From: an uncultured Chlorobiaceae bacterium
GTDB taxonomy: Bacteria > Bacteroidota > Chlorobiia > Chlorobiales > Chlorobiaceae
Direction: 5' to 3'
DNA: 57,421 nt
NCBI GenBank assembly: GCA_903939765.1
Contig: CAJAIK010000113.1
Coordinates: forward strand, 1-57,421
Numbering within the stretch: position 1 is the first letter of the stretch; the number at the start of each line of letters is the position of its first letter. Below, piece after piece: positions 5,430 to 57,421 of the stretch. The position numbers were made by a program, and so were the translations under genes. Under the pieces are notes generated by a model. It searched no databases, was not told where the DNA came from, and saw nothing but the letters and a program-made list of their open reading frames with translations.

Positions 5430-5772
5430 TTGCCGGATACTCTGCTTGTCCAAAGCCTTTGCATCATTACCCCACTCGCGGGTGACCAACAGAGGCAAAT
5501 CATCACCGATGCCTTCGAACCAGCAGAAGCGTTGCCGCAAACACAATGGCTTTCAAAAAAAAGAGACTCTTCAATAGTGCATCTTTCACCCCGATTCAGC
5601 AGTGCCCAGGAATATTTGAAGGCTGAAGCACTTTTTCTTTGAACAATTATATTATATTTACCGTGATAACTGCACGAAGAATTTGACACCATTTTACTCA
5701 TTCATGGCAGACAAAAAATCCCGACATATTTTTGCAAGCACAACTTCCATTATCACATAAACACATACGACT
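5430..5772. other. Gene-free region upstream of the 105-aa gene
   Basis: About 340 bp without a convincing gene; the short frames present look like chance openings. The AT-rich stretch around 5636-5665 could hold the promoter of the 105-aa gene, but no clear pair of boxes stands out. Confidence 0.4.
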
Positions 5773-50539: not shown

Positions 50540-51889
50540 ATGCACAATAATTTCAGCCACCAGCAAACGCGATCAAACTTTATCGGAATTTTCAAGCTCC
50601 CGTTTATGGGGATAACGCTTTTTTTCTTATACTTTAGAAACTTATCTGACCTGTTTTACTCAATTACATTACTTCCTGTTACCGTTTTGGAGCAAAATAC
50701 CTATAACCAATGCCCGGTCTGCGGCTACCCCCTCACCACGCAGAGTGCGGTATGTCCCCGATGCGGAAACGATATCCTTGAAGATATATCCTCCCTTGAC
50801 CAGCAATCCAGGGAGTTTCACCATCACAGCATTGAAGGGAAAAAGGCCGAGTGGTATACCCGTTGCCTTACTGAAAAACTCAATGTCAGCACCGATGACT
50901 CCACCGCTTCTGCCCCAAAGAGCGTTCAACAGGCAATACCAAAAGAGAGCGTCGAATGCCCCGAAGCAGTTGATTCCCTCAGCCGCATCTCCAGAGCCGA
51001 GCTCATCAATGAGGGCTCCATACGAAAAAAATGGTGGTCGGCCCTCTCCATTGACTGGAAAGAGATCGTCAAAACAACCCTGAAAATTGTCCGGGATCCC
51101 TCCGATCCGGAGTTGCTTGACTTCCTTGAAATTACACACCTGCGTTGCGATAATCGCAGGATTCATAACCTTTGGCCCGTCAGTGTGCTCGAAAACCTTC
51201 AGCAGCTCCGTTGCGATGAATCGCCTGTCGAAAGCCTCGACCCGCTCAGGAACCTTCAGCATCTGCGCCGCCTCTACGCTTTCGACTGCGACTTTTCATC
51301 ACTTGAACCCCTTCGCAACCTGAAAGAGCTGAAACTCCTCTGGGTATCCAGCACCAAAGTCAGTTCACTTGAACCAATCAGCAGCTTGCTTGCCCTTGAA
51401 GAACTCTACTGTTCCGAAACGATCATCAGCGACCTTTCCCCGCTGAAAGCACTCGTCAACCTCGAAAAGCTCAGTTGCTACAAAACCGCCATCACCTCAC
51501 TTGAACCGCTCCTGAACCTCGAAAACCTTGTTGAGCTGGGCATCGACAATTCAAACATTACCGATATCACGCCACTCTCCGGGCTCAGAAACCTCGAATA
51601 TCTCCGCTGCAACAAAACCGGAATCAAAAACATCGAAGCGCTGAGAAATCTTTTTGAACTTCGGGAACTGAGCCTTGCAAACACGCCGCTTATCGATATC
51701 GACCCTCTCGAAGAACTGGCCAACCTCGAAGAGCTCGATTTGTCGAACACCTCCATCACCACAATTGGCCCCGTCATGCACCTGCAGAATCTTGAAAAAA
51801 TAGAACTTTCGGCCGGCAGGATTCCCCAGGAAGAGCTCGAACGCTTTATTGAACTCCACCCGAATTGCGAAGTAGTGCTGAAACCCTGA
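50540..51889 (+). CDS. Zinc-ribbon and leucine-rich-repeat protein
   Basis: A 449-aa protein. A zinc ribbon (CPVCGYPL...CPRCG; cysteines at residues 58, 61, 72 and 75) precedes a low-complexity linker. From about residue 200 to 430 there are roughly ten 22-residue leucine-rich repeats of the form LENLVELGIDNSNITDITPL, the internalin/SDS22-like type with I or L ending each unit. The N-terminal 50 residues are hydrophobic and may not be translated; a TTG at 50687 giving MEQNTYNQCPVCG is a realistic alternative start. LRR arrays bind proteins; the target is unknown. Confidence 0.85.
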   Translation: MHNNFSHQQTRSNFIGIFKLPFMGITLFFLYFRNLSDLFYSITLLPVTVLEQNTYNQCPVCGYPLTTQSAVCPRCGNDILEDISSLDQQSREFHHHSIEGKKAEWYTRCLTEKLNVSTDDSTASAPKSVQQAIPKESVECPEAVDSLSRISRAELINEGSIRKKWWSALSIDWKEIVKTTLKIVRDPSDPELLDFLEITHLRCDNRRIHNLWPVSVLENLQQLRCDESPVESLDPLRNLQHLRRLYAFDCDFSSLEPLRNLKELKLLWVSSTKVSSLEPISSLLALEELYCSETIISDLSPLKALVNLEKLSCYKTAITSLEPLLNLENLVELGIDNSNITDITPLSGLRNLEYLRCNKTGIKNIEALRNLFELRELSLANTPLIDIDPLEELANLEELDLSNTSITTIGPVMHLQNLEKIELSAGRIPQEELERFIELHPNCEVVLKP

Positions 51890-51975: not shown

Positions 51976-52111
51976 CATGTAAAAAAAATTTTCCAGCCTT
52001 TCCTTGTCAGTTTTTCCCTGTCGAGTGAGCTTACTTTTTCAGAGTTTCAGAGAACAGAGTGTCAGAAATTCAGGAAGAAAAAGGACTGGAACGAATCACT
52101 CGAAAACCCAT
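51976..52111. repeat. Copy of the variable-protein 3' end and downstream flank
   Basis: This stretch matches 53323-53452 closely, including 'ggactggaacgaatcactcg' and much of the non-coding flank beyond the stop codon. The shared block covers the last 12 codons and about 95 bp after the stop, so a whole gene end was duplicated, not a coding motif alone. Confidence 0.85.
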
Positions 52112-52165
52112 GACGTAGTTGATGACGTAGTCCCGCAGATAGTAGTCGAGATAATCGGTCGTAAA
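52070..52165 (-). pseudogene. Orphan 3' tail of a second DGR variable protein
   Basis: On the minus strand the end reads DYYLRDYVINYVMGFRVIRS then SPFSS and a stop. The last 12 residues (GFRVIRSSPFSS) are identical to those of the NACHT-FGE protein at 53410-56442, but the 12 residues before MGF differ. Ten of those 12 codons are NNY (GAC, TAC, TAT, GAC, TAC, GTC, ATC, AAC, TAC, GTC), the footprint left when adenines in AAC/AAT template codons are randomised. Upstream of about 52165 similarity stops, so the rest of the gene has been lost. Confidence 0.75.
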
Positions 52166-52300
52166 GAGAAAATGGAGAGAGGGTGACTGGTAAAATGAAA
52201 CCCCTTCACCGTTAAGCCCTCCTCATTTTTGATGATTTTTTGCTATTATTACTTTTACAGCCAGCAGAACGATTTACTAACAAAAAACATGTTGAGGCTC

Positions 52301-52519
52301 ATGATTTCAATACATGATGTTTACAGGAGTGCTTTAGCCCTGAACCTGCGGGAGCAAGCGGAGCTTGTTGACAGGTTGATTGCTCAGCTTGATCAGCCAG
52401 ACAGAATAATTGATGAGTTATGGATGAATGAAGCAGAAAGTCGGATTAATGCTTTTGATCAAGGGAAAATAAAAGCCATCCCTCTGAACGAGGTACTTGG
52501 AAAGTATTTTAATGCGTGA
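52301..52519 (+). CDS. Antitoxin of the ParD/RelB-like addiction-module type
   Basis: The start at the ATG at 52301 has GAGG 4 nt upstream; earlier in-frame ATG codons at 52289 and 52229 lack one. The 72-aa product (ALNLREQAELVDRLIAQLDQ, then EAESRINAFDQGKIKAIPLN) matches the putative addiction-module component family seen with RelE/ParE toxins. It overlaps the toxin gene by 8 bp. Confidence 0.85.
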   Translation: MISIHDVYRSALALNLREQAELVDRLIAQLDQPDRIIDELWMNEAESRINAFDQGKIKAIPLNEVLGKYFNA

Positions 52520-52808
52520 TAATATCCAATTTCTGGAAGTTGCCCAATCTGAGCTTGACGCAACCATAGACTACTACGACCATGAGTTGTCGGGTTTAGG
52601 CAAGATTTTTCTTACTGAGGTACTTCATGCTCTTGATCGGATAGTGAATCATCCTGATGCATGGCATCCGTGTTCACTGCGCACCAGGCGATGCCAGCTT
52701 CGTCGTTTTCCTTATGGAATAATTTACCAGATACGCGAACAAGACATTCTTGTTATTGCCATAGCAAATCTCCACAGAAGGCCATCCTACTGGAATGATC
52801 GTCTTTGA
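52512..52808 (+). CDS. RelE/ParE-type toxin
   Basis: A 98-aa protein starting at the ATG at 52512 (MRDNIQFLEVAQSELDATID). It has the RelE/ParE fold landmarks YYDHELSGLGKIFLTEVLHA, RRCQLRRFPYGIIYQI and IAIANLHRRPSYWNDR, the last being the typical C-terminal region with a basic residue needed for toxicity. It is paired with the antitoxin upstream and sits between DGR remnants. Confidence 0.88.
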   Translation: MRDNIQFLEVAQSELDATIDYYDHELSGLGKIFLTEVLHALDRIVNHPDAWHPCSLRTRRCQLRRFPYGIIYQIREQDILVIAIANLHRRPSYWNDRL

Positions 52809-52823
52809 GTGCTTCTGCCCCCC

Positions 52824-52937
52824 TCACAACCCCAACGAGCGCAAAAGGTTGCGGGTATTGGCCTGCCGGGCGTGGCCGACCCAACCTGAAAGGCTCTGCC
52901 GCAAGTTTTCATGCTTGGCAAGCAAGGTGCATTGCAT
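52824..52937 (-). pseudogene. C-terminal stub of a reverse transcriptase (DGR-type)
   Basis: The 37-codon frame opens MQCTLLAKHENLRQSLSGWV and continues GHARQANTRNLLRSLGL. The LxxSLSGWxGHARxANTxxL pattern resembles the end of the thumb region in DGR reverse transcriptases, as I recall those sequences. It begins 5 bp after the stop codon of the Avd pseudogene, so the template repeat and most of the polymerase gene must have been deleted between them. The call rests on a short segment and is tentative. Confidence 0.6.
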
Positions 52938-52941
52938 CCTC

Positions 52942-53263
52942 TCAACCGCCAAGCATTTTTCCCAACTCGGCAATCTGCCGGCTCCCGAATTCGTATGAGG
53001 CAAGATTGATGAATTGCATCTCAAAACTCATGCGCAACAGGAGGCGCAGGCGCGTCAAAACCTCATCAGCCTCTGCCAGCGCCGGGCGCTTGTGGTTGCG
53101 CATGTTGGCAATGGCAACAAGTTCGGTAAATTCAAGCACGGCATTTTAGAGGGCGAACAGCAATGCTGAACCGATAGCTCTTCGGGAACTTTCCGGTATG
53201 GTGCAGCAGCCATTTCGAAAAATCAAAGGCTTTTTTGACGATCAGCATTTCGTGATTTGGCAT
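52942..53263 (-). pseudogene. avd: Avd accessory protein of a DGR, frameshifted
   Basis: Starting at the ATG at 53263 it reads MPNHEMLIVKKAFDFSKWLL, then HHTGKFPKSYRFSIAVR. An extra C near 53160 shifts the frame. In the other frame the sequence continues LEFTELVAIANMRNHKRPAL, AEADEVLTRLRLLLRMSFEM and ends ELGKMLGG. The sum of both frames is a 106-aa four-helix-bundle Avd, the basic protein that assists the DGR reverse transcriptase. Compared with the copy at 57190-57421 it has one inserted C and a G-to-T change. The gene is therefore inactive unless frameshifting occurs. Confidence 0.85.
52976..53173. repeat. Direct repeat copy 1 (Avd sequence)
   Basis: Nearly identical to 57224-57421 over about 198 bp, with a handful of differences including the frameshifting C. 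Together the two copies flank a 4-kb segment carrying the variable-protein gene and a toxin-antitoxin pair. Homologous recombination between them would delete that segment. Confidence 0.9.
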
Positions 53264-53322
53264 GAGCAAATGAACAATTGACAGTTGACAATGGAGAAGC
53301 GCCGACTTCAAGGTTTTACAAA

Positions 53323-53452
53323 AAAAATTTCCAGCCTCTCCATCTCAGTTTTTCACTGTCGAGTGAGCTTGCTTTTTTTCAGATTTCCAGAGAACAGAGT
53401 GTCAGATTATCAGGAAGAAAAAGGACTGGAACGAATCACTCGAAAACCCACG
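53323..53452. repeat. Variable-protein 3' end, partner of the copy at 51976-52111
   Basis: Shared with 51976-52111 at high identity, and covers the last codons of the NACHT-FGE gene and about 85 bp of downstream sequence. In a DGR the sequence just after the variable region holds the initiation-of-mutagenic-homing site. Conservation of that flank between the two copies fits this role. A short CACT-CGAC-AGTG hairpin lies within it. Confidence 0.75.
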
Positions 53453-56442
53453 CTGAAGAAGCTGATCCTCGGATAGTAGTAGTTCCGGGAGGAGCAGCGC
53501 AGGGCATCAGCTTTATCACTATAATACGCGCTGCCCCGTATTGCACGCCAGCCATTCTCTTCATTATACCAGTCGTCCGTCCACTCCCACACATTGCCCG
53601 CCATATCATGCAACCCTTCAGGTGTAGCACCTTCAGGATAACGACCTACCGGTGTTGTGGCACCTTCATTGTTGTTATAATTCGCATGTCTGGTTGATGG
53701 CTCTGCACTCCCCCATGGGTAGACTCTGTTCTCTTTCCCCCCTGCCGCGTATTCCCACTCCTTTTCAGTTGGTAACCGATAGAGCGCTGTATTTTCTCCA
53801 TTACTCTCAAGCAGGGAGATCCAAAAGCAATACGCTTGAGCGGCATACCAGCTCACCCCAACGACGGGCTGATCATCTTTGTTGAAGCGTTTGTCATCAT
53901 CCTTATATGAAGTAAAACATTTGGAGAGCGATTCTTCTCCCCGCAGAAAATCGCTGAACCCCTTGATTTTCTTTGCCTCTCGCTGCAATCGTACTGTGTA
54001 ACGCTCAACGGGAAGCACGGTTGCAAATTCGATATCCTGGGCCGCCAGATAGTTGATAAAGCGGCGATAAAGCTGGTTCGTCACGGTGTATTTGGCCATA
54101 GAGAGATCCTGCACCCTCTCCTGCTTCTTTGTCAGCGAAAAGATAAAAGAACCGCCTTTGATGAGAATGTACTCTGCCCCAATCTTGTCACGCAACACTG
54201 CTGTGGTGGCATGAACTTCACGAAACTTCATCACCATGGCAAGCGCTTCCGGCTTGCCAATTGTTTTCAAACACTCCATGATGTATCGCTGCCGGTTCGG
54301 CGTTGTTGCCGGATCAAGCAATTTCGTCTGCAAGGCATCAATTTTGCGTTGTGGCGCCTCCTCGACGAGGGTAATCAGCAAATCCTGCTGCTTTGGCGTC
54401 AAAGAGTCTGTGACTGGTGAATCAAAGAGCTTCTCCATGAAGGAATCAAAAATCCCGGCGTCATCAACATGACCAATAAAAAAACGGAGCGGCTCCTGCC
54501 ACCAGTCGTCACCGAAATGGGTGACCAGTTCGTCAAGAGAACCTCCCCTGTGCATGGTTTTTTCAAGCTGAACTCCCGCCAGGTACTCACGGAAGGATTT
54601 ATGACGAAACACATACTCTTTTTCACCGTACTCCACCAGCAGACCAGCCCGGTCAACAAGGTTCCGGCAAAAATCTGTGGCAGGCAGTGAATTGTAGAGC
54701 GTATCGAGCAGCTCCTGCATTTTCTCCTGCATTTTCTCCCGACCTGCCTCATCTTTTTTCAACTCCTCCTGCATCCAGAGCGAGACAGGGCTCAGCACCC
54801 GCCTCGCATCTTCTGCGGCAAGTAACGGGTCAATTCCTCTCCGGCGGTCACGATAATCGAGCATATAGTTCAATGCAGCGTCGTAGAGCTTTAAACGACT
54901 GCCCGGCAGATACTGGCGATCTTTCCAGAGCATCGCCATAATCTGCAACAACAGCGGAACCCCTGCCAATGATTGTAAACTCCGGTTTTTCTCCTGAGCG
55001 AGAAAGTCAAGAATTGCATCGGCTTTTTTGGCTGCTTGCTGTTCCTGATGGATGCGCCACTCCGCCTTGTCTCCGGTGGCGGGTGGAATTTCGCCGAGGA
55101 AAGCGGCCTTGAACCAACGCTGTAAAAACTGCGCCTGCTGCTCTTTGGAAAAGTCCATAATGTCGGCACGCAGATGGCTTGCTTCAAGCTCAATGCCATC
55201 GCCTTTCCTATAGCCTGTGCTCCTTGAGGTCACCACAAACCGGACAGAGGTAAACCTGCCAACCATCTTGTCAATCCAGCCACAAACCGCAATCCGGTCA
55301 TGGACATCACTGATTTCATCCAAACCATCAAGAAGCACAAGCGTTGAGGGCTCCTCAAGCCAGCCGGAAAAGAGCGTATCGGGGAGAACAAGGAAATTTT
55401 TTTCACACCATGCAGAGAGCGTTGCGGGCAATGAAGCGTAGCCGGTATCACCCCTTCTGAGTTCACGCAACGGAAGGTAAAAAACATTGACCGGTTCGCT
55501 GAACCCGAACTCCTTGTGCCGACCGTTGTCGAGACAGGAGAGCGCATAGTATTTGAGCAAGGTTGTTTTTCCTGAACCGGGATCGCCAATAATGAGCAGC
55601 AATGGATGATGCTGAAAAACAAAACGCATCACCTCTTCAGGAGTGCTGGTACAATCCTTTTGGTGAGGCACACACTGATCATCTGCGCTGTAGGGACGTG
55701 TTTCGCAGCGCGACGAGCCGGAAAGAGTTAACGACACAAAGGTATCGGAGAGCTTTACTGAAAAATTTGTAATGGCGGGAGAACCTGTCAGGGTGATGTT
55801 ACCCAATTGGCGTTTCAGGGTTGACTGGTAGAGCTTGAGGGCCGAAGCCGCATCAAGCTCAGGCAAAACGACAATCCGGTCTTGAACTGCGGCGTCCGGC
55901 CCAAACCACCGGGGTATCTGGATGTCGAGATGAGTCAGAAGGTTTTGACGAAATATATCAGGACTATCATATTCCCACAACAGCGAATACCCTTGCATCG
56001 ATGCTTTAAATTCAGCAAGTCTCGTCAACTGGTCGGCGAACTCCATTACCTTGCCGGAATCGGAGAGATTCAACGGGTAGTTGGCTTTGGAAAAATAGAG
56101 CATGACCGGCTTGCGATAACTCATTAACCTTTGTACCTCTTCAACAGCTCCTCCCGGAGCTACACCTGTATCAGTACCAATCCGTGTCCAAAACATCCCG
56201 ATGGCGCAATCGCACGCATCAACAATCTGCTTATTAAGAATTCCCTGCACCCTCTCACCACTTTCAGGTGCCCCGTGCGATTCCCACAACACTGGCTCAA
56301 GCATGAGGCCGGACTGTGGATGACGGATATGCCAGGTGCAAATTACTTCATCGGCTATTTTCCGCTCTGCGGCAACGTCGGAGGGTGAAGCGACGAGAAC
56401 TTTTACGATTCGAGCCAGGTTGTCAGGCATTGGGCATTTCAA
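53410..56442 (-). CDS. DGR variable protein: N-terminal sensor-like domain, NACHT NTPase, C-terminal FGE/C-type-lectin domain
   Basis: A 1,010-aa protein. Residues about 10-120 (VKVLVASPSDVAAERKIADE, DCAIGMFWTRIGTDTG) form a DUF4062/TIR-like N-terminal domain. The NACHT NTPase has Walker A IIGDPGSGKTTLLKYYAL (286-293 core), Walker B STLVLLDGLDEISD, and a helical domain with ENRSLQSLAGVPLLLQIMAM-like text (EKNRSLQSLAGVPLLLQIMA). The C-terminal 250 residues are a formylglycine-generating-enzyme fold (YRLPTEKEWEYAAGG, HDMAGNVWEWTDDWYNEENG, WRAIRGSAYYSDKADALRCS). The final RNYYYPRISFFSVGF segment has nine NNY codons among the eleven at 987-997. FGE-fold proteins with such tails are known DGR targets, and NACHT fusions of them are proposed conflict-system sensors. 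The start could also be the ATG at 56430. Confidence 0.92.
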   Translation of the reverse strand: MKCPMPDNLARIVKVLVASPSDVAAERKIADEVICTWHIRHPQSGLMLEPVLWESHGAPESGERVQGILNKQIVDACDCAIGMFWTRIGTDTGVAPGGAVEEVQRLMSYRKPVMLYFSKANYPLNLSDSGKVMEFADQLTRLAEFKASMQGYSLLWEYDSPDIFRQNLLTHLDIQIPRWFGPDAAVQDRIVVLPELDAASALKLYQSTLKRQLGNITLTGSPAITNFSVKLSDTFVSLTLSGSSRCETRPYSADDQCVPHQKDCTSTPEEVMRFVFQHHPLLLIIGDPGSGKTTLLKYYALSCLDNGRHKEFGFSEPVNVFYLPLRELRRGDTGYASLPATLSAWCEKNFLVLPDTLFSGWLEEPSTLVLLDGLDEISDVHDRIAVCGWIDKMVGRFTSVRFVVTSRSTGYRKGDGIELEASHLRADIMDFSKEQQAQFLQRWFKAAFLGEIPPATGDKAEWRIHQEQQAAKKADAILDFLAQEKNRSLQSLAGVPLLLQIMAMLWKDRQYLPGSRLKLYDAALNYMLDYRDRRRGIDPLLAAEDARRVLSPVSLWMQEELKKDEAGREKMQEKMQELLDTLYNSLPATDFCRNLVDRAGLLVEYGEKEYVFRHKSFREYLAGVQLEKTMHRGGSLDELVTHFGDDWWQEPLRFFIGHVDDAGIFDSFMEKLFDSPVTDSLTPKQQDLLITLVEEAPQRKIDALQTKLLDPATTPNRQRYIMECLKTIGKPEALAMVMKFREVHATTAVLRDKIGAEYILIKGGSFIFSLTKKQERVQDLSMAKYTVTNQLYRRFINYLAAQDIEFATVLPVERYTVRLQREAKKIKGFSDFLRGEESLSKCFTSYKDDDKRFNKDDQPVVGVSWYAAQAYCFWISLLESNGENTALYRLPTEKEWEYAAGGKENRVYPWGSAEPSTRHANYNNNEGATTPVGRYPEGATPEGLHDMAGNVWEWTDDWYNEENGWRAIRGSAYYSDKADALRCSSRNYYYPRISFFSVGFRVIRSSPFSS
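53449..53530 (-). other. Probable DGR variable region of the NACHT-FGE gene
   Basis: Codons for residues 987-997 are NNY with only two exceptions (CCG, AGG), as expected when AAC/AAT codons of a template repeat are randomised at their adenines. The invariant GFRVIRSSPFSS end follows. Upstream, residues YYSDKADALRCSS may belong to the same region. A template with A at those positions was not found in the window, so the assignment is by codon pattern and comparison with the tail at 52070-52165. Confidence 0.7.
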
Positions 56443-56499: not shown

Positions 56500-56796
56500 T
56501 TATAGATCAAGCTCATCCAAACGCAGTAAACGGTGCCCTTCAAAAACGGTGAGAATTTCAACATGCAGTGAAGTGCGCCTATACACTATTCGGTAATTCC
56601 CGACAAGTATCTCCCTGATTTCAGAATAAGAGAGCTCAGGAACCACTCTTCCCGCATCAGGATATATACCGGTCAAATCGCCTTTTTCAAGAAGGTGATC
56701 AATAAAATCAGAAGCCCTGTCCGAATTATCCTGAGCGATAAACCCTTCAATTTCAGCAAGTTTTCTGACCGCTTCGCTTGTCCAGACCACCTTCAT
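56500..56796 (-). CDS. RelE/ParE-type toxin
   Basis: A 98-aa protein with VVWTSEAVRKLAEIEGFIAQ at the N-terminus, then PDAGRVVPELSYSEIREILV and YRIVYRRTSLHVEILTVFEG, the RelE/ParE core. It differs in sequence from the toxin at 52512-52808. It overlaps its antitoxin by 4 bp (ATGA) and lies 58 bp before the variable-protein gene on the same strand. Confidence 0.88.
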   Translation of the reverse strand: MKVVWTSEAVRKLAEIEGFIAQDNSDRASDFIDHLLEKGDLTGIYPDAGRVVPELSYSEIREILVGNYRIVYRRTSLHVEILTVFEGHRLLRLDELDL

Positions 56797-57083
56797 TCTT
56801 TTCTGGAAGCTCTTTTTTCAGCAAGCATCTGCCGTACCTCATCCGTATCATAGTGTTCCCCGGATTCTGCCGCTGCCAAGCCACGCTCAACAGATTCGGA
56901 AAATTGTTTGCGGTACACCAATGCGTCATATTCAACAGGTGAAAGCAGAACTCCGGCCGGCCGGCCATTCTGGGTAATAATCAATGGATGACCAGTAACC
57001 TGTGCTTTTTTCAGGCAGGCAGAGATCCCGGCCTTAAACTCACCCAGCGGAATAATATCGCTTGATATTTGAATGTTTTTCAT
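56793..57083 (-). CDS. Phd/YefM-family antitoxin
   Basis: A 96-aa antitoxin: IIPLGEFKAGISACLKKAQV, then HPLIITQNGRPAGVLLSPVE, the Phd/YefM DNA-binding and dimer region. The C-terminal ESGEHYDTDEVRQMLAEKRA is the toxin-binding tail. It is translationally coupled to the RelE toxin. The frame appears whole. Confidence 0.9.
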   Translation of the reverse strand: MKNIQISSDIIPLGEFKAGISACLKKAQVTGHPLIITQNGRPAGVLLSPVEYDALVYRKQFSESVERGLAAAESGEHYDTDEVRQMLAEKRASRKE

Positions 57084-57189: not shown

Positions 57190-57421
57190 TCAACTCTTCC
57201 ATATACCACTTGATATTGTTATTTGCCGGCTCCCGAATTCGTATGAGGCGAGATTGATGAATTGCATCTCAAAACTCATGCGCAACAGGAGGCGCAGGCG
57301 CGTCAAAACCTCATCAGCCTCTGCCAGCGCCGGGCGCTTGTGGTTGCGCATGTTGGCAACAGCAACAAGCTCGGTAAATTCAAGCACGGCATTTTCGAGG
57401 CGAACAGCAATGCTGAACCGA
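57190..57421 (-). pseudogene. avd: Second Avd copy with replaced C-terminus (runs off the window)
   Basis: The frame enters from the window edge with RFSIAVRLENAVLEFTELVA, intact where copy 1 is frameshifted, and continues through VLTRLRLLLRMSFEMQFINL to FGSRQI. There homology stops and the frame ends after TISSGIWKS, instead of AELGKMLGG. The lost tail carries the conserved Gly-Gly end of Avd. The N-terminus lies outside, so it could be an active gene with a new tail or another pseudogene. Confidence 0.75.
57224..57421. repeat. Direct repeat copy 2 (Avd sequence)
   Basis: Partner of 52976-53173; the identity starts at 'tgccggctcccgaattcg' in both and extends to the window end, and may continue beyond. 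The junction at 57224 marks where the Avd C-terminus was cut. Confidence 0.9.

Follow-up and report, generated by a model that had tools for sequence, protein, structure and literature searches.

The window analysed here, the whole stretch of 57,421 nucleotides from an uncultured Chlorobiaceae bacterium, carries an intact NACHT-FGE target gene of a diversity-generating retroelement (DGR) and, between this gene and an LRR gene, a short variable-region (VR) tail that belongs to no target open reading frame. The features of this part of the window, including those that we assign to an eroded copy of a DGR module, are as follows.

50540..51889, plus strand: conserved LRR gene (PF12799), the fixed neighbor of the presumed fossil, with a match in 82 of 86 family genomes
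51982..52069, minus strand: downstream flank common to other targets, running up to the 3' flank of the LRR gene
52070..52108, minus strand: constant 3' end, with GGTTTTCGAGTGATTCGTTCC at its start (common to the template repeat (TR) and the VRs), then SPFSS and a stop
52109..52150, minus strand: orphan VR core of 14 codons, template form N4-P-R-N7-M, with 14/24 template adenines and 1/18 other bases changed
52151..52380, minus strand: upstream region of the presumed lost target, which meets the VR core at 52151/52150 without any intervening sequence
52229..52519, plus strand: antitoxin-like gene (PF09720) within the eroded module
52497..52808, plus strand: ParE-like toxin gene (PF05016) within the eroded module
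52796..52939, minus strand: reverse transcriptase (RT) remnant, consisting of the 3' end (RT residues 295-344) and following bases, 91.7% identical to L024 3777-3634
52943..53248, minus strand: frameshifted avd copy joined to the RT tail, with the TR and most of the RT gone (about 1.3 kb)
53410..56442, minus strand: intact NACHT-FGE target gene (PF05729, PF03781), VR core at 53449-53484
57220..57421, minus strand: second avd piece at the contig end, its 3' side cut off, the last 141 bases identical to an end of contig C97

Read on the minus strand from 52150 to 52109, the orphan core consists of the codons CTC GAC TAC TAT CTG CGG GAC TAC GTC ATC AAC TAC GTC ATG, which are followed down to 52070 by GGT TTT CGA GTG ATT CGT TCC AGT CCT TTT TCT TCC TGA. 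The closing GFRVIRSSPFSS, with its stop codon, is identical to the end of the intact NACHT-FGE gene at 53410-53448, and the constant 3' end as a whole is identical to the other VR tails of the genome, a few bases excepted. A preliminary description of this DNA had claimed that the orphan shares both its 3' end and its downstream flank with the NACHT-FGE gene, and comparison of 51982-52113 with 53320-53450 bears this out with 90% identity over ~130 bases. The corresponding E-value is about 1e-44, and for this reason the shared block is not a product of chance. The 12 residues that precede the methionine are D Y Y L R D Y V I N Y V, encoded by ten NNY codons together with CTG and CGG; the earlier count of ten was correct, and the CTC codon just before this stretch adds an eleventh. 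The fragment is also isolated, as had been proposed, in that the sequence immediately 5' of the core is a homolog of the upstream region of another target and not of an FGE domain, and neither FGE nor NACHT coding sequence lies upstream of the orphan. The 5' TR homology (GCTGATGCCCTGCGCTGCTCCTCCCGG) is missing and the 3' homology is retained. Neither ATG nor GTG nor TTG occurs in the target frame ahead of the ATG that ends the core, and the orphan therefore makes no target-like peptide. A short GTG-initiated frame runs across the junction, out of frame with the target. A search of 86 family genomes that tolerated up to 3 mismatches yielded no second copy of the exact orphan stretch.

Which system could have produced such a tail? 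A piecewise search of the bacterium's own genome (G000; 2.98 Mb in 128 contigs) revealed a matching DGR on contig C97 (locus L024), which comprises an Avd gene, a TR, an RT and another NACHT-FGE target. The TR, which reads CGG AAC AAC AAC AAT CCG AGG AAC AAC AAC AAC AAC ATG GGTTTTCGAGTGATTCGTTCC, lies ~0.2 kb upstream of the RT gene and is the sole TR of its type found in this assembly. The RT of 344 aa exceeds the cut-off for RVT_1 (PF00078) and contains IGNLTSQ and YVDD in its translation, and the Avd protein scores 103.6 bits (cut-off 80) against NF033474 DivGenRetAVD and also matches PF22296 bAvd. An FGE-sulfatase domain (PF03781) is C-terminal in both the C97 target and the NACHT-FGE gene of the window. 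When the five intact VRs of the genome, including that of the window's NACHT-FGE gene, are compared with the C97 TR, 63/100 adenines and 1/80 other bases are changed; the VR core of the window's gene taken alone differs at 11/20 adenines and at 0/16 other bases. The C97 system thus presents the features by which a DGR is recognized, namely an RT beside a TR, an Avd, and differences between TR and VR that fall at template adenines. Residues 10-176 of the intact target at 53410-56442 match the PADLOC model PDC-S60 (1.9e-19), which makes its product a candidate defence protein, and this N-terminal match is in line with a putative role as a defence sensor.

Two further DGRs were observed in the same genome. 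The first of these, L026 (C87:40000-48000), has a TR at 3713-3579 and VRs at 2229-2095 and 5505-5373, in which 15/15 and 16/16 mismatches, respectively, fall at TR adenines; the VR at 5505-5373 is preceded by a NACHT-FGE frame that ends at 5509 and is apparently broken by a frameshift. The other, L029 (C16:46000-51000), possesses its own RT, a TR at 1815-1679 and a VR at 3592-3456, and 17/21 of its mismatches are located at TR adenines.

In DGRs, cDNA synthesis and homing are thought to begin at the constant 3' end shared by TR and VR. Anchored at its 3' end and aligned without gaps to the C97 TR, the orphan shows 8/16 non-adenine mismatches, and this five-codon register was dropped in favor of one whose second AAC run counts 7 codons. 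Against a template of the latter form, 14/24 adenines and 1/18 other bases are changed, the sole non-adenine change being CCG to CTG (C to T). Second-run lengths from 3 to 9 were tried, and all except 7 leave at least 5 non-adenine mismatches. In the seven-codon register the orphan keeps 15/16 non-adenine template positions 5' of the ATG, and the chance of such a fit at 16 sites is about 3e-8 with three run lengths allowed for; a shuffle test returned 0/300,000 equally good fits. The proposal that the orphan samples the same adenine-directed mutagenesis as its neighbor is upheld by these counts. The stricter prediction, that differences would fall solely at template adenines, holds in the seven-codon register save for one base, and hence solely with a change in length permitted, but fails for the five-codon TR without gaps. 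Relative to the only TR found, the orphan has gained 6 nt and carries one non-adenine change, and both count against the explanation that we favor; the lone C to T would be about what is expected in a relic, judging from the 8-9% divergence of its flanks. A search of 86 family genomes for a TR whose second run has 7 codons found none, a further point against that explanation. Because the orphan ends a whole eroded avd-TR-RT-toxin-antitoxin-target module, the template from which it was written may have been lost along with that module, and the C97 TR is a candidate source.

How unusual is a VR that is longer than its TR? Eight genomes in which the TR is known supplied 31 VRs for a survey; the VRs were gathered by their 3' motif, such that diverged ones were missed. 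In this set 25 VRs have the length of the TR, another 4 exceed it by one codon, the remaining 2 (the orphan and L062) exceed it by two, and none is shorter; gains of one or two codons are therefore seen in 5/30 Chlorobiaceae VRs besides the orphan. These 30 VRs keep 516/518 non-adenine positions and are changed at 355/592 adenines. The longer VRs (6/31) are L043:5659, L052:7519, L062:1897, L032:1561, L050:3709 and the window's own 52109-52150. With the only TR found in each genome as the reference, the extra codons of all six are AAC-derived, and an unassembled second TR in some genomes may alter the count. Slippage, shortening of the template or an unassembled second TR could be the source of these gains. 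For DGRs, a proposal of in-frame slippage at AAC repeats is credited to Wu et al. 2018 in PMC12875486, and the likeness, to the extent that the citing paper describes that work, lies in indels in multiples of three within AAC repeats. The proposal as cited there covers insertions or deletions, whereas the 6/31 Chlorobiaceae VRs that differ from TR length here are all gains.

Piecewise comparison with C97 places the orphan in a larger context. The minus strand from 53248 to 51982 is a collapsed copy of the whole C97 module, in the order avd, RT tail, toxin-antitoxin pair, target upstream region and VR core; C97 itself is without most of the toxin-antitoxin pair. The stretch 51981-53174 matches C97 at 91-97% identity, piece by piece, and is interrupted by two gaps, one of about 1.3 kb where C97 has the TR and the RT body and one of about 2.95 kb where it has the body of the target. 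The segment 52151..52380 is 91.3% identical to L024 3637-3407, directly upstream of the C97 target, and 82% identical to the equivalent place in G067 (L093 7952-7791). C97 and G067 are the only places beyond the window where a match to this upstream region turned up, and in both it precedes a target of one and the same class; the gene that was lost thus probably encoded a NACHT-FGE protein like that of C97. The breakpoint at 52151/52150 falls exactly between the template's constant CGG codon and its first AAC codon. The orphan junction was seen in this one assembly only, which also counts against the favored explanation, and no transposon was seen at either of the two junctions. The preliminary description had read the fragment as the fossil of a second diversified target, and this reading is sustained by flanks that match the up- and downstream regions of the C97 target around a missing body. 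Its account of the loss was right as to the target and too narrow in extent, since the deletions also took other parts of the module that the orphan ends.

At the right end of the window, 57281-57421 is identical over 141 bases to L024 1-141, within an avd repeat, and the C97 contig with its TR and RT may adjoin the window here. From the avd piece at 57220-57421 toward position 56442 there come first two small genes (56500-57083) that resemble a toxin-antitoxin pair and next the intact target; TR and RT seem to be absent from this interval as well. The contigs of this genome break in avd repeats, and the array around the window is therefore incomplete.

The LRR gene provides a fixed point for comparison among relatives. 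This same LRR gene has a full-length NACHT-FGE target converging on it in G035 and G057 and a truncated VR tail next to it in G069, and in G054 and G052 no NACHT-FGE target was found beside it within the stretch read. This comparison supports the former presence of a target at the site and shows that targets have come and gone next to a neighbor that stays fixed. The LRR gene recurs next to NACHT-FGE DGR targets in several Chlorobiaceae (L142, L143 and L144, from G035, G057 and G066). Broken NACHT-FGE targets were observed in relatives at L054:3209, L050:3709, L046:3827, L055:2526, L108:5573 and L093:7947-8396, with differing breakpoints; target loss is common in these arrays. At L061:4803 and L051:351 the GFRVIRSS ends are intact and the variable stretch is off-template, with many non-adenine differences; these are possibly targets that have dropped out of diversification.

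We conclude, with a probability of roughly 0.93, that 52150-52070 represents the 3' end of a former DGR target and thus the fossil of a deleted second target. A duplicate avd-TR-RT-toxin-antitoxin-target module would once have ended beside the LRR gene, its target would have been written by mutagenic retrohoming while the module was intact, and later deletions would have removed the TR-RT portion and the body of the target. One source of the two extra AAC-derived codons could be cDNA synthesis that slipped in frame on the AAC run; the other is a deleted template with a longer run, from which they would have been copied. Under the established model of DGR function, the tail is probably frozen, no longer rewritten and without present function, because the 5' TR homology is missing and the orphan is not translated within a target. 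The well-kept constant 3' end might instead be taken to mean that the orphan functions as it is, whether as a small transcript, a short peptide or a VR reserve for recombination with intact targets. However, we find this barely credible given that the target frame offers no start codon before the end of the core, that the exact stretch was not found in the other family genomes searched, and that the 5' TR homology is gone and the neighboring avd and RT are broken.

How was the body of the target removed? The position of the breakpoint, exactly at the boundary of CGG and the first AAC codon, raises the idea that the DGR itself made the deletion, such that a cDNA whose end fell on the border of the mutable block was linked to the upstream region in place of the 5' homology of the VR, and a single aberrant retrohoming event removed the gene. 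The fossil at L054:3209, whose breakpoint is the 3' edge of the mutable block, agrees with this idea, and if it were true, DGRs would buy their diversity at the price of a steady loss of targets, seen as tails broken at the mutable-block edge. We nevertheless regard it as improbable: the targets in L046, L050, L055, L108 and G069 break elsewhere, the TR-RT deletion in the same module does not lie in a VR, and ordinary illegitimate recombination is enough to explain the junction. Clustering of breakpoints inside VRs was considered as a sign of deletion by the DGR and was discarded; two early examples fit and the wider set did not. Repeats clearly troubled the assembly, as seen from contigs that break in avd repeats and from the identical bases shared by the window end and C97, and VR tails are themselves repeated, so that a tail from another locus might have been joined artificially to unrelated sequence. 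Such a chimera is very unlikely, however, since both flanks of the orphan are 8-9% off every other copy in the genome and therefore were not borrowed from an assembled copy, and since a VR tail is joined to the LRR gene in G069 as well. The loss of a formerly diversified target through deletion remains our preferred reading.

Degenerate DGR loci and a non-coding VR have already been published, and the orphan is a well-resolved further case. In the DGR of Pelodictyon phaeoclathratiforme BU-1, one of the four VRs lies outside any identifiable coding region (Schillinger et al. 2012, PMC3521204), and the likeness extends to a green sulfur bacterium with a multi-VR DGR of which one VR is non-coding. 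The route by which the BU-1 VR lost its gene is not given (PMC3521204), whereas here the missing gene and the TR and RT pieces are mapped; BU-1 is compared by its description. Thiohalocapsa PB-PSB1 harbors degenerate DGR loci, and a putative role as sensors of antigens has been assigned to its NACHT-type targets (Dore et al. 2024, PMC10907252). It resembles the present genome in having several DGR loci, some without an RT or TR or with a broken one, and NACHT-type targets with C-terminal lectin-fold domains. Decay in PB-PSB1 is tied to transposons and MITE-like repeats (PMC10907252), in contrast to the two junctions described here, at which no transposon was seen. Pseudogulbenkiania sp. NH8B has a duplicated DGR with one decayed RT (Schillinger et al. 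2012, PMC3521204), a parallel in which one RT is lost and targets are served from the other copy. The remote targets of NH8B are intact open reading frames (PMC3521204), whereas here the target is gone and the tail alone is left.

The orphan alone opens no new mechanism. It confirms the NACHT-FGE gene of the window as part of a multi-target DGR and illustrates the decay of an array in which a module would have been copied and would then have lost its TR and RT and, after these, its target, while the one remaining TR on C97 still fits all 5/5 intact targets checked. Fossil tails of this kind preserve traces of earlier mutagenesis and of the lengths that templates once had, and the full-length targets that lie by the same LRR gene in relatives make the gain and loss of targets traceable.
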